This document shows positions 31,265 through 36,408 of a DNA stretch of 64,000 bases, piece by piece. The stretch is from Microbispora bryophytorum (GTDB lineage: Bacteria; Actinomycetota; Actinomycetes; Streptosporangiales; Streptosporangiaceae). Position 1 is the first letter of the stretch, and every line of letters starts with the position of its first letter. The stretch lies in NCBI RefSeq assembly GCF_006874465.1, contig NZ_VIRL01000023.1, positions 1 to 64,000 on the forward strand, written 5' to 3'. A program made the translations under genes and the position numbers. The notes under the pieces were generated by a model. It made no database searches. It was not told the DNA's origin and saw nothing but the letters and a program-made list of their open reading frames with translations.

Positions 31265-32772
31265 GGGGCGCTCTCCAGGATGCGTTCGGCGGCCAGACGG
31301 CCGGAGATCAGCACGGGCGGCACCCCGACCCCGGGTGCCGTGTACATGCCGGCGAAGTGAAGTCCGGGGACCCGCCTGGCCGCGCCGGACGGGCGGAACC
31401 ACGCGGTCTGGGTGAACCGGGCGTCGAGTGCGAAGGGCGTGCCGGCCGAGTGGCCGCGCCGCCGCCAGGCGGGGGGATCGAGCACCAGCCGGGGCGTGGC
31501 GGACAGGTCGCCGTATCCGAGGTCGGCGAGCCGGCTCAGCATGCGGTCCAGGAGGCGGGGGGTTAGGGCGGTCCAGTCGGCGCCGCCCCGCGTGTTCGCG
31601 GTGGGTTCCAGCACGCTGAGCACGGCGGGGCCGCCGTCGCCCGGCCCGTGGTCGTGTGGCCCGTGGTTGTCTGGCCCGTGGTTAACGGGACAGGTCACCA
31701 GCAGGCTCGGGTCCGATTGCGGCCTGCCCGCCTCCAGAGCCGCGAACGTCGACTCCCACTCCCGCCCGAAGTGCAGGGTGTGATGGGCCTGGCCCTCCGG
31801 GCGCCGGTCGAGCGCGAAGTGCGCCACCAGGCAGGAGGGGGAGAAGCGGGGCCGCCGCAGCCGCCAGTCGGCCGCCTCCTCCGGCAGCAGGCCGTCGCCG
31901 CCCCGCCGGCCCTGCGCCCGGACCAGGTCGCAGGCCACCACGGCGTGCCGGGCGGCGAGCCGTTCGCCGGTGGCGAGGCGGACGGCGACCACCCCCGCGC
32001 CGTCGGTCTCGATCCGCGTGGCCCGCACGCCGTACCGGAAGACCGCCCCGGCCTTCTCCGCGGCGGCGGCCATGGCCCGGGGGACGGCGTGCATGCCGCC
32101 CTCCCTGGGGAAGTAGACCCCGCCGACCGTGTCCATGTGCGCGATCACCGCGTACACGCCGAGGGCGCGGCGCGGCGACAGGCCGACGTACAGTGCCTGG
32201 AAGGTGTGCGCCCTGATCAGCCGCTCGTCGGTGAGGTGACGCCGCACGAGCCCGTCCAGCCGGCGGAAGCCGCCGAGCGCGGCCAGCCGCGCCAGCGCGT
32301 ACGGCCGGGCCAGCGCCCGCAGCCGGGTCATGTCCCGGTCGATGAAGGCACCCCACTCGGCTTCGAACATCTCTCCGAGCAGGCGCCGGAACCGCTGGTA
32401 GCGCCGGGCCTCTTCGGGCCCGGACAGCTCCCGCACCTGCTCGGCCATCGCGTCGGCCCCCGCCACCACGTCGAGCCGCGAACCGTCGTGGAAGGTCAGC
32501 CGGTAGTACGGGTCGAGCCGCCGCAGCGGCAGCCAGCGCTCCATGTCCTGCCCGGCGGCGGCGAAGGTGTCGGCCAGCACCCCCGGCATGGTCAGCACCG
32601 AGGGGCCGGTGTCGAAGCGGTGGGAGCCCAGGGTCGCCGTGCCGCAGCAGCCGCCCGGCACGTCGGAGGCCTCCACGACCGTCACCTCACGGCCCGCCCC
32701 GGCCAGGCGCATCGCGGCGGACAGACCGCCCAGCCCGGCGCCGATCACCACGACCGGCCCGCCCGCGGTCAT
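31261..32772 (-). CDS. crtI: Phytoene desaturase
   Basis: The 503-residue FAD protein starts with VVVIGAGLGGLSAAMRLAGAG and has the early CrtI block FDTGPSVLTMPGVLADTFAAAG, the mid block VGGVYFPREGGMHAVPRAMAAA and the C-terminal LHFAGMYTAPGVGVPPVLISGRLAAERIL. It introduces double bonds into phytoene up to lycopene. A His/Gly/Asp-rich insert (NHGPDNHGPHDHGPGDGG, near residue 390) is a local tandem repeat absent from most homologues. ATG 32772 overlaps the crtE stop (ATGA-type). Confidence 0.92.
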   Translation of the reverse strand: MTAGGPVVVIGAGLGGLSAAMRLAGAGREVTVVEASDVPGGCCGTATLGSHRFDTGPSVLTMPGVLADTFAAAGQDMERWLPLRRLDPYYRLTFHDGSRLDVVAGADAMAEQVRELSGPEEARRYQRFRRLLGEMFEAEWGAFIDRDMTRLRALARPYALARLAALGGFRRLDGLVRRHLTDERLIRAHTFQALYVGLSPRRALGVYAVIAHMDTVGGVYFPREGGMHAVPRAMAAAAEKAGAVFRYGVRATRIETDGAGVVAVRLATGERLAARHAVVACDLVRAQGRRGGDGLLPEEAADWRLRRPRFSPSCLVAHFALDRRPEGQAHHTLHFGREWESTFAALEAGRPQSDPSLLVTCPVNHGPDNHGPHDHGPGDGGPAVLSVLEPTANTRGGADWTALTPRLLDRMLSRLADLGYGDLSATPRLVLDPPAWRRRGHSAGTPFALDARFTQTAWFRPSGAARRVPGLHFAGMYTAPGVGVPPVLISGRLAAERILESAP

Positions 32773-34022
32773 CAGGCCGCCCCGCCGGCGGCGGGCTCGG
32801 CGGAGCCGGCCGGAGGGGCGGGGCCGGGGGAGGCCGCGTTTCCGGCCTGGCCGGGCCGAGCCGCGTGGTCGGGCCGAGCCGCGGGGTGGGGGTCGGCCGC
32901 GGGGTGGGGGTCGGCCGCTGAGTGGGGCTGGGCCAGGCGGAGGGCGAGGCCGAGCAGGGCCGTCCGGGCGTCCGCCGGCATGTCCGCCCCGGACAGCGCC
33001 TCGCCCGCGGACTCGGTCAGGTCGCGGATGCGCCGCTCGACCGCCTCCAGCGCGCCGGTCGCGACGATCACCTCCCGGGCCGCGGCCAGGCGGTCCGGCT
33101 GCGCCTCGCCCGTGCCCGGCAGTGCGTCCAGCAGCGCCGCTCCCGGGCCGTCCGCGCGTTCGCGCGCCAACGTCAGCAGGTAGGTCCGCTTGCCCTGCAG
33201 CAGGTCGGCCCCGGCGGGCTTCCCGGTCCGGGCCGGGTCGCCGAAGACGCCGAGGACGTCGTCGCGGAGCTGGAACGCCTCGCCCAGCGGGAGGGCGTAC
33301 GCGCTGAGGACCCGGCGCAGCCCGGGGTCGCCACCGGCGATGGCGTGACCGAGGTGCAGCGGCCGTTCCACCGTGTACCTGCCCGACTTGTACGTCGAGA
33401 TCAGCAGTGCCTCCCGGTGGTCGCCGCCGCCCCGGGCGGCGCAGGTCAGGTCGAGGTACTGCCCGGCGATCAGCTCCACGCGGAGCTGGGTGAAGACCTC
33501 CAGGGCGTCGGCCAGCCTGCGGCGGTCGGCCAGCAGCGCGGAGTCGGCCCAGGTGAAGGCGAGCACGCCGAGCAGGATGGCGGCCGACTCCCCGAACCGC
33601 TGCGACGACCCGGCCCAGCCGAGCTCCCGGTGACGCTCGGCGAGCGCCAGGTGGGCGGTCGTCCGGCCGCGCCTGAGGGGCGACTCGTCCATCACGTCGT
33701 CGAGGATCAGCGCGCACGCGTGGAGGAGCTCGATCGAGCAGCCCGCCGCCAGCACGGCCCCGAGGTCGTCGGGTGAGCCGCCGCAGGCCCGGTGCCCCCA
33801 GTACACGAACGCCGGCCGCAGCCGCCTGCCGCCGCGAGCGACGAAGTCGGCGAGGTGACGTCGCAGCACCTCCCGGTCGTCGGCGCCAAGGAAGGACAAT
33901 CGGCTCAGCTCGCGCCGGAGCAGCTCGTCCAGGGCGTGGTCGAACAGACCGGAAAGGTGGCGATCGAACGGCTCCCGCGGGTCGTCCCGAACGCCGCCGG
34001 TCTCGCGGGTCAACGTCAGCAT
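32772..34022 (-). CDS. crtE: Geranylgeranyl diphosphate synthase (polyprenyl synthetase)
   Basis: The 416-residue protein has the trans-prenyltransferase motifs: GGRRLRPAFVYWGH, the first Asp-rich motif LILDDVMDESPLRRG, YKSGRYTVERPLHLG and the second motif FQLRDDVLGVFGDPARTGKPAGADL. It makes the C20 precursor for CrtB. The last 45 residues are a Pro/His/Ala/Asp-rich repeat tail. AAGGAG lies 8 bases before ATG 34022. It is the first gene of the minus-strand carotenoid operon and is divergent from the CarH-type regulator. Confidence 0.92.
   Translation of the reverse strand: MLTLTRETGGVRDDPREPFDRHLSGLFDHALDELLRRELSRLSFLGADDREVLRRHLADFVARGGRRLRPAFVYWGHRACGGSPDDLGAVLAAGCSIELLHACALILDDVMDESPLRRGRTTAHLALAERHRELGWAGSSQRFGESAAILLGVLAFTWADSALLADRRRLADALEVFTQLRVELIAGQYLDLTCAARGGGDHREALLISTYKSGRYTVERPLHLGHAIAGGDPGLRRVLSAYALPLGEAFQLRDDVLGVFGDPARTGKPAGADLLQGKRTYLLTLARERADGPGAALLDALPGTGEAQPDRLAAAREVIVATGALEAVERRIRDLTESAGEALSGADMPADARTALLGLALRLAQPHSAADPHPAADPHPAARPDHAARPGQAGNAASPGPAPPAGSAEPAAGGAA
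32856..32934. repeat. 18-bp tandem repeats in the 3' end of crtE
   Basis: GCGGGGTGGGGGTCGGCC-like units at 32881, 32899 and 32917 (the last degenerate), preceded by related 18-base units. They encode the ADPHPA-type tail. This is an in-frame expansion. Confidence 0.75.
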
Positions 34023-34198
34023 GCGCACTGCTCCTTCGATCGTTACGGTGATCGGCGGCGCCGTCAGTAGAGTTTTCGCGCCCGCCCGCTCCGGCGGTTG
34101 CATCCGGGCAAGGCCCCCGGGCCGAAACACGGTCAGGGGCGGCACGGGCGCCGGGCGCGATGGGCGCGGCGACGACCGGATGGACACGGGGTGAGCAC

Positions 34199-35200
34199 GT
34201 GACGCGCGAGGGCGGGTCGGGGGCCGGTGAGCACGCGGCCGCCGAAGAGGAGCCGGGCTACGGCATCGGGGCCGTCTCCCGTCGGCTCGGCGTGCCCGCG
34301 TCCACGCTGCGCACGTGGAATCTCAGGTATGGCATCGGCCCCAGCAGGCGCAGCCCCGGCGGGCACCGGCGCTACGACGACGCGGACCTGCGCCGCCTGG
34401 AGGAGATGAACCGGCTGATCCGCGCCGGGATGCCGCCGGCCGACGCCGCCAGGCAGGCGCTGCGGCTTAGGCCCGCGCCGGGGGAGCGGGCGGCGTCCGC
34501 CCCGGCCCGGGAGGGGGCCGCGTCACCGGAGTCGCCCGGACGGCCGGAGCCCACCGTGCCGTCCGCCTCCGCCGTACGGCCGGCCGCCGACCCCGGATTG
34601 CTGTCGGCGGCGATGCTGGCCCGCGCGGTGACGGTGCTGGACACCGCGACGGTGGACGCGGGACTGGACGCGGCGCTGGCCGCGCACGGCGTGATGTGGA
34701 CGTGGGAGCGGCTCGTGCTGCCGGTGTTCGCGGCCGTCACCCGCAGGCAGCAGGACACCGGAGCCGGGATCGACGTCGAGCACCTGTTCTCCGACCGGCT
34801 CCAGGCCGCACTGGCGCGGTTCTCCGCGCGCGTGCCCTCGCCCGTGCATCCCCGTCCTGTCCTGCTGGCCGCCGCGGAGGAGGAGCAGCACGCGCTGCCG
34901 ATCCACGCGCTGGCCGCCGCGCTCGGCGTGCTCGGGGTGGAGACCCGCGTGCTCGGGGCGCGCACGCCGTACACCACGCTGGCGGACGCGATGCGGCGCC
35001 TCGGTCCCGCGGCGGTGTTCGTGTGGTCGCAGCTGCGGGAGACGGGCGATCCGACCCCGCTGGCCGGTCTGCCGGGGCTCCGTCCCGCCTGCCGTGTCGT
35101 GGTCGGCGGCCCCGGGTGGCGCGACGGCCTGCCCACGCATGTCATCCGGGTGAACACGTTTCGTGACGCCCTGTCGGCGGTAATGACCACTCTGCGGTGA
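34199..35200 (+). CDS. MerR-family regulator with cobalamin-binding-like domain (CarH/LitR type)
   Basis: The 333-residue protein has a MerR helix-turn-helix (YGIGAVSRRLGVPASTLRTWNLRYGIGPSRRSPGGHRRYDDADL, residues 21-65). The C-terminal half resembles the B12 photoreceptor module of CarH: a four-helix cap with the EH pair (Glu194-His195) and a Rossmann domain with a candidate lower-ligand His231 in EEEQHALPI. The Trp of the CarH W-x9-EH motif is replaced by Gln184. CarH tetramers with adenosylcobalamin repress carotenoid genes in the dark. GTG 34199 follows GGGGTGAG. The position between crtE and the ECF sigma gene fits light control. Confidence 0.8.
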   Translation: MTREGGSGAGEHAAAEEEPGYGIGAVSRRLGVPASTLRTWNLRYGIGPSRRSPGGHRRYDDADLRRLEEMNRLIRAGMPPADAARQALRLRPAPGERAASAPAREGAASPESPGRPEPTVPSASAVRPAADPGLLSAAMLARAVTVLDTATVDAGLDAALAAHGVMWTWERLVLPVFAAVTRRQQDTGAGIDVEHLFSDRLQAALARFSARVPSPVHPRPVLLAAAEEEQHALPIHALAAALGVLGVETRVLGARTPYTTLADAMRRLGPAAVFVWSQLRETGDPTPLAGLPGLRPACRVVVGGPGWRDGLPTHVIRVNTFRDALSAVMTTLR

Positions 35201-35246
35201 TTCGCCCTCTTTGGCGCATCTTTGATCCGGTGTTCGGCCCCCATGG

Positions 35247-35277
35247 TTGTCCGCTGCCAGCGCGGGCAGCTATGAAT
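35247..35277 (+). promoter_or_regulatory. Putative promoter of the ECF sigma gene
   Basis: TTGTCC (35247-35252), 18 bases, then TATGAAT (35271-35277). The 11-bp repeats start within this -10 box. Confidence 0.5.
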
Positions 35278-35306
35278 AGGTTTTGAATAAGTTTTCGCCG
35301 AGTCTT
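35273..35306 (+). promoter_or_regulatory. Three 11-bp-spaced repeats, likely CarH/LitR operator
   Basis: TGAATAGGTTT (35273-35283) and TGAATAAGTTT (35284-35294) match at 10 of 11 positions, and a third degenerate unit follows at 35295-35305. The element RRGTYTT recurs at 35278, 35289 and 35300. Direct repeats of 11 bp are the known architecture of CarH operators. The array covers the -10 and the start region of the sigma gene. Confidence 0.6.
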
Positions 35307-35323
35307 CTGCCCAAGGGGGGCCG

Positions 35324-35845
35324 ATGGAGGAGACCCTGGAGTTCCGCCTCGCCGCGGGGGACACGGGAGCGCTGGGGGAGTGCTACCGGGTGCACTCGCC
35401 GGCCGTGCGCTCCTACCTGCGCAAACTCGTGCCGCCCCAGGATGTGGAGGACGTCATGCAGGTCGTCTTCACCGAGGTGTGGCGCTTCCGGCACCGCTTC
35501 GACCCGGGCCGCAGCCTGCCGGCCTGGTTGTTCGGCATCGCCCGCAACCGGGCGGTGGACCACCTGCGGGCGCGGGCCCCGGCGACGGTGCCGCTGGAGG
35601 CGGTCCCCGACCCGGCGGGGCGTGACGGCCGGCTGGACGGCGACCAGTTCGCCGACCGCGACCGAATCCGCCGAGCGCTGGCCTCGCTGCCGCAGGTGCA
35701 GCGCCAGGCGATCGAGCTGGCCTACTACGGAGACCTGACGCAGCGGGAGATCGCCGAGCGCCTGCGGGTCCCGCTCGGCACGGTCAAGGCGCGCACGGCC
35801 CGCGGCCTGCACCGCCTGTCCACCCTGCTGCGGCCGGCGGCCTGA
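35324..35845 (+). CDS. ECF RNA polymerase sigma factor (LitS-like by context)
   Basis: The 173-residue protein has region 2 (VRSYLRKLVPPQDVEDVMQVVFTEVWRFRHRFD, AWLFGIARNRAVDHLR) and region 4 (ALASLPQVQRQAIELAYYGDLTQREIAERLRVPLGTVKARTARGLHRL). No anti-sigma gene adjoins it. In Streptomyces a light-induced ECF sigma (LitS), repressed by LitR in the dark, transcribes the carotenoid operons; gene order and the repeats upstream make the same scheme likely here. AAGGGGGG precedes ATG 35324. Confidence 0.85.
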   Translation: MEETLEFRLAAGDTGALGECYRVHSPAVRSYLRKLVPPQDVEDVMQVVFTEVWRFRHRFDPGRSLPAWLFGIARNRAVDHLRARAPATVPLEAVPDPAGRDGRLDGDQFADRDRIRRALASLPQVQRQAIELAYYGDLTQREIAERLRVPLGTVKARTARGLHRLSTLLRPAA

Positions 35846-35910
35846 CCACGGGGCCTAAGGAGTAACCCCGTTCCCGCATGAGTGCGGACGAGGGGGAAGA
35901 AAGAGGACGC

Positions 35911-36408
35911 ATGAGACGCACATCGAAGAAGACGCTGGTGCGGACGGCCCTCGCGGTGACCGCGACGGCCGCGGTCGGCGGCCTGTCCACCGACGCCCGC
36001 TCCGGCTGGTGCGCCCGCCTGCGCAAGCCCTCCTGGCAGCCGCCGCCGAAGGCGTTCGGCCTGGTCTGGACGCCGTTGTACGCGACGATCGCCTACGCCT
36101 CCGCCCGGGCGCTGTCGCACGGGGACGACGGCTCCCGGCCGGCCCTGCGGCGTGCGCTCGCCGCCAACCTGGCGCTCAACGCGGCCTGGCCGCCGCTGTT
36201 CTTCAAGGCCCGCAACCCCCGCCTCGCGCTCGCGGAGATCCTCGCGCTCAACGTGTCGAACGCGCTGCTGACCCGCCGCCTCCTCCGGCAGGACCGCACG
36301 GCCGGGCTTCTGCTGCTGCCGTACGCCGGGTGGACGGTCTTCGCCACCGCGCTCAACGCCGCCATCGCCCGGCACAACCCGGAAGCGCAGCACAACCCGA
36401 AGGTCTGA
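35911..36408 (+). CDS. TspO/MBR family protein
   Basis: The 165-residue membrane protein has five predicted helices and the TspO hallmark WCARLRKPSWQPPPKAFGLVWTPLYATIAYAS at residues 35-67, plus NLALNAAWPPLFFKARN. TspO proteins bind porphyrins and affect tetrapyrrole and carotenoid output under light or oxygen stress in some bacteria. ATG 35911 follows AGAGGAC; ATG 35878 is an alternative with poor spacing. It lies 65 bases after the ECF sigma gene and is probably co-transcribed, linking it to the light response. Confidence 0.88.
   Translation: MRRTSKKTLVRTALAVTATAAVGGLSTDARSGWCARLRKPSWQPPPKAFGLVWTPLYATIAYASARALSHGDDGSRPALRRALAANLALNAAWPPLFFKARNPRLALAEILALNVSNALLTRRLLRQDRTAGLLLLPYAGWTVFATALNAAIARHNPEAQHNPKV

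Follow-up and report, generated by a model that had tools for sequence, protein, structure and literature searches.

Which DNA does an actinobacterial LitR regulator recognize? We found no precise target described in the open-access literature searched, and the question is raised directly by a 64-kb stretch of Microbispora bryophytorum DNA (the window) that carries a litR-like gene, a gene for an ECF sigma factor (litS), and crt genes. In Streptomyces coelicolor, a LitR gene lies beside the gene for the ECF sigma factor LitS, LitS directs crtE, and carotenoids are light inducible (PMC12705666). Published CarH operators consist of tandem 11-bp repeats of the form nAnnTnnACAn positioned over promoter elements, with three repeats in Thermus and four in Bacillus (PMC9304148, PMC8156234). 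In the window, two 11-bp units are found in the 123-bp gap between the end of the litR-like gene and litS (Table 1). We consider it likely that these 22 bp are the operator of the neighboring LitR, at which litS would be blocked until light or another signal releases the regulator and LitS transcribes crtE.

Table 1. Positions, strands, and supporting observations for the features of the litR-litS-crtE locus (numbering of the 64-kb window)
Feature	Position	Strand	Basis
crtE, polyprenyl synthetase, predicted LitS target	32772..34022	-	Pfam polyprenyl_synt; promoter motif
Predicted LitS-type crtE promoter, TGCAACC-N17-CGAAAAC, holding GAGTTTTCGC (34070-34079) as -10 region	34072..34102	-	Sole genome match; conserved in relatives
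litR, CarH/LitR-family MerR regulator	34199..35200 (start ATG 34160 or GTG 34199)	+	MerR_1, B12-binding_2; alignment to Thermus CarH; Gln at Trp131 position
Predicted litS -35, TTGTCC	35247..35252	+	TTG 25-26 bp upstream of unit 1 (main class); shifts with -10 in other genera
Predicted litS -10, TATGAA, overlapping unit 1	35271..35276	+	TA before unit 1 in 19/21 loci; spacer 17-18 bp
Predicted operator unit 1, TGAATAGGTTT	35273..35283	+	Kept in 21/21 litR-litS loci gathered by protein; genome-unique
Predicted operator unit 2, TGAATAAGTTT	35284..35294	+	Kept in 21/21 loci; genome-unique; tandem 11-bp direct repeat
Third unit of the earlier note, TCGCCGAGTCTT	35295..35306	+	Outside conserved element; kept in 0/20 orthologous loci
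litS, ECF sigma factor, predicted target	35324..35845	+	Sigma70_r2 and r4; adjoins litR in 20 related loci

The two-unit site and its distribution

As the earlier note had described, the two units abut directly and differ at one position (10/11 identical), and the array begins inside the candidate -10 TATGAA. The 22-bp site lies 30 bp upstream of litS, and the GC content of the repeat core is 21%, versus 72% for the window. Tandem 11-mer pairs with 10/11 identity are not rare by themselves, with 3 observed in the 64 kb and 1.6 expected. The litS pair is the sole AT-rich one in the window, none of 60 shuffles produced an AT-rich one, and the chance that any such pair falls within a gap of 123 bp is about 0.003. 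Nowhere else in the 7.85-Mb genome does the pair recur, even when 3 mismatches are allowed.

Relatives were gathered by LitR protein similarity alone, the DNA playing no part in their selection, and the resulting conservation set comprised 21 loci with an adjacent LitS (66 to 100% identity, window included). Both units were found in every one of them; 14 of the 22 aligned positions are invariant, and most of the others are shared by 17 to 20 of the 21 loci. Immediately after unit 2, the information content falls to about 0.3 to 0.7 bits. The earlier note had counted three units at 11-bp spacing, and its RRGTYTT motif is indeed present at 35278, 35289, and 35300, but the third unit is not conserved: conservation collapses after the 22 bp, most relatives have a ribosome binding site or other sequence at that position, and in the closest relative AGTCTT is displaced to 12-bp spacing. 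The element thus comprises two units and spans 22 bp.

A DNA pattern, TGAAYARGTTYTGARYARGTT, was also scanned across the GTDB genome collection (about 85,000 genomes) and matched 91 stretches, 52 of which adjoin litR and/or litS. Forty-five of these 52 belong to the Streptosporangiales and have the site just upstream of litS, although 4 of the 45, with litR present and the same spacing, gave no tblastn match to LitS; the genera include Microbispora, Planobispora, Planomonospora, Streptosporangium, Nonomuraea, Herbidospora, Acrocarpospora, Sphaerisporangium, Thermomonospora, and others. The earlier note had staked its proposal on the repeats being conserved ahead of sigma-gene orthologues, and this was borne out both in the 21 loci and in the scan. 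The remaining 7 of the 52 come from Aeromicrobium/Nocardioidaceae, where a LitR-like MerR gene runs divergently from the site and LitS was not seen; in 6 of these the unit reads TGAACA, in agreement with the TnnACA consensus published for CarH. The rest of the 91 consist of 3 more Aeromicrobium sites (1 at a WhiB-like gene and 2 at CsbD-like/HATPase genes), 2 actinobacterial metagenome-assembled genomes (MAGs), and 34 stretches outside the Actinomycetota, for which no LitR-type MerR gene was found within up to 8 kb. In a more distant genome (G030), whose LitR is 47% identical, the site follows litR and precedes a 2-thiouracil-desulfurase (DUF523)/DUF1722 gene (L170:3903-4911), and no LitS is present beside litR and the site.

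Since Aeromicrobium/Nocardioidaceae and G030 retain the site next to LitR and with no LitS there, LitR is the common factor. The HTH and wing of LitR are CarH-like, which as a match at the family level leaves some room for the 22 bp to be read by another regulator or sigma factor, LitS itself included, with LitR being a mere neighbor. We regard this as quite unlikely, given that LitS-type promoters have a different form (TGCAACC-N17-CGAAAAC), that LitS is absent from those contexts which retain the site, that LitR is the sole common gene seen across contexts, and that 11-bp direct repeats are a specific hallmark of CarH-type binding (PMC9304148).

Promoter geometry and the proposed mode of LitR action

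The predicted litS promoter is TTGTCC-N18-TATGAA, and the main class of relatives has TTGNNN-N17/18-TATGAA. In Herbidospora, the TA before unit 1 is lost and a TTG is now found 19 to 20 bp upstream, so that the -10 falls on TAGGTT within unit 1; the Aeromicrobium TTG lies 8 to 9 bp upstream, and there the -10 falls on TAAGTT within unit 2. The array thus lies over the predicted -10 in all three geometries, an assignment that was made post hoc, with the sequences already seen. The shifting of the -35 together with the -10, with the array always over the -10, implies repression, and this covariation around an intact array speaks for the promoter as well as for an operator that blocks it. That the conserved stretch is an RNA leader element or just a conserved promoter core appears very improbable. 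Unit 2 may sit at the transcript start, as such a reading would have it, but unit 1 overlaps the -10, no Rfam match was found in 34000-36000, a promoter core would have no use for a direct repeat of 22 bp, and the promoters of other genera are shifted relative to an array that stays intact.

Classical MerR proteins activate from promoter sites, and the promoters that they activate typically have an elongated -35/-10 spacer of 19 to 20 bp. The site could accordingly be bound by LitR for activation, with the light form distorting or contacting the promoter in the manner of MerR and turning litS on. This stays a rival because Streptomyces LitR has been described as promoting litS transcription in the light (PMC12705666). 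We consider it improbable here: the predicted litS spacer is 17 to 18 bp and not elongated, the array of the main class overlaps the -10 and the expected start rather than the -35/-10 spacer alone, and B12 supplementation reportedly reduced expression in the dark in Streptomyces, an effect suggestive of a repressor (PMC12705666).

We infer that LitR physically binds the site and represses rather than activates litS. Two LitR DNA-binding domains, most simply those of one head-to-tail dimer, would occupy the two 11-bp direct repeats, and the bound protein would lie over the -10 and the start of transcription at a promoter of the housekeeping type, keeping litS off in the dark. Light, presumably the signal, or some other cue perceived by the B12-like domain would release LitR and allow the ECF sigma factor LitS to be made.

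A TspO/MBR-family gene is located directly downstream of litS (35911-36408, + strand). In Streptomyces, litA/litB occupy this position.

The predicted crtE promoter and the Streptomyces cascade

The earlier note had also pointed to a sequence related to the repeat units, GAGTTTTCGC, in the crtE promoter region. The sequence is present there, but it is not a repeat unit: on the crtE strand it forms the -10 of a predicted, conserved promoter of the ECF type, and it was rejected as an operator. TGCAACC-N17-CGAAAAC has one match in the whole genome (control, 0), a slightly looser version is expected 0.01 times in the window, and the promoter is conserved as GGATGCAACC-N16/17-CGAARAC in the crtE/litR intergenic regions of many relatives. 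It is a natural candidate for the LitS-dependent crtE promoter. We infer that LitS recognizes it and would from there transcribe crtE and the carotenoid genes.

The locus has the gene content of the Streptomyces-type cascade, with litR, the ECF sigma gene litS, and crt genes together beside a conserved, genome-unique crtE promoter motif, and the scheme proposed here is that of S. coelicolor, in which litS is under the control of LitR and its product, in turn, transcribes crtE (PMC12705666). Two steps of the cascade can now be told apart, namely, a predicted LitR operator at litS and a predicted LitS promoter at crtE. The Streptomyces loci examined differ in that litS is divergent from litR and is only about 37 to 43% identical, and the TGAATA array was absent from them at two mismatches. 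The Streptomyces litR-litS intergenic regions (L145-L163) share a conserved block, TACGACGCAGAAACGATGCGAGTTG, in which both an imperfect 11-bp repeat and an ECF promoter driving litR can be read. It was considered as an equivalent two-repeat operator, but in the litR direction it also resembles an ECF promoter of the GCAAC-N-CGTA type and for that reason cannot be used as support.

A LitR variant compared with CarH

The window LitR scores 57 bits against MerR_1, lies exactly at the cutoff of B12-binding_2, and is below threshold for B12-binding; it aligns with Thermus CarH across both halves. Against the NCBIfam CarH equivalog NF052513, it scores 72 bits, where the cutoff is 400. The Wx9EH motif has been described as absolutely conserved in CarH and defining for it, and Trp131 of CarH stacks on the adenosyl group and is crucial for head-to-tail dimers (PMC8156234, PMC10442372). 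The window LitR and nearly all of its clade have Qx9EH in place of this motif: Gln replaces Trp131 in almost all of the aligned litR-litS proteins from Streptosporangiales, and the neighboring His132 is also missing. His177, the cobalt ligand, is retained, as are the E141/H142 positions. In the ExHx2G lower-axial His motif, the ExH is retained and the Gly is changed to Pro (EQHALP), a Pro that is also usual in the aligned Streptomyces LitR. The aligned Streptomyces LitR proteins differ from the window protein in carrying the Wx9EH Trp and in having a wing that reads GRHRRW; the Trp is also present in the Aeromicrobium/Nocardioidaceae LitR encoded beside TGAACA sites.

Because the Trp of Wx9EH is absent, adenosylcobalamin (AdoCbl) light sensing by the window LitR is uncertain. 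The earlier note had invoked a dark-state AdoCbl tetramer, which, with Gln at Trp131 and no His132, is therefore not established, and one dimer on two repeats is a simpler model that fits better. Binding of this kind is experimentally known from Cystobacter, whose CarH dimer requires two tandem 11-bp repeats (PMC9304148), although the operator in that species accommodates two dimers on 4 to 5 repeats and the protein is described as a photoreceptor based on AdoCbl, whereas the window LitR is without the Wx9EH Trp. The Thermus and Bacillus operators resemble the litS site in their promoter-overlapping tandem 11-bp direct repeats, in the adjacent CarH/LitR-type gene, and in a T..A.A core on the sense strand; they differ in having three or four repeats with TnnACA, where the litS site has two with TGAATA and a regulator with Gln for Trp131. 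TGAATA (TnnATA) is one position off TnnACA, and the A at position 2 of nAnnTnnACAn is absent; the consensus is likewise departed from in the clade of the window. In Myxococcus, whose -35 TTGACA doubles as a TnnACA unit, the orientation of the array with respect to transcription is the same.

Judged from DNA and protein comparisons, the 22 bp are a well-supported candidate for a LitR operator that is a variant of the CarH/LitR kind, with two repeats, a TGAATA unit, and a Gln-variant regulator. An operator of this family over the -10, as the earlier note had proposed, is the best reading in view of the conservation and the link to LitR; of the details that it attached to that proposal, the three repeats and the crtE unit did not hold, and the tetramer is not supported for this protein. 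We tentatively raise the possibility that the LitR of Streptosporangiaceae is no AdoCbl tetramer of the CarH type, binds another cobalamin form or reads another signal, and functions as a dimer at a minimal operator of two repeats, with the sigma gene as its sole recognizable genomic target. The comparison exposes a LitR clade in which the cobalt-ligating His is retained and the Trp thought to be essential for AdoCbl sensing is swapped, and the minimum number of repeats and the residues that a B12-type light switch needs become a testable question.

Outside the Actinomycetota, the Anaerolineae and Bacteroidetes motif matches, considered as CarH operators, had no LitR-type MerR gene in the DNA around them (up to 8 kb). 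Anaerolineae/Chloroflexi MAGs (L092, L124, L126, and L133; also L071 and L129) contain 2 to 4 tandem TGAACAGGTTT-like units, which fit the CarH TnnACA, and in four MAGs a GAF-domain gene lies a few hundred base pairs away from the array. In Aeromicrobium (L049, L050, L034, L051, L032, and L033), 11-bp arrays of the same kind as the litS site were seen at WhiB-like genes, in the divergent promoter of a WhiB-like gene and LitR, and in the gap between CsbD-like and HATPase genes, a placement that suggests a wider LitR regulon in that genus. Two further Aeromicrobium loci (L164 and L165) encode LitR paralogues that have lost the Trp and Glu of Wx9EH, and a tandem run of three units, TGGACAAGTTT TGCACAACTTG TGCGCAAGTTT, lies upstream of these paralogue genes.
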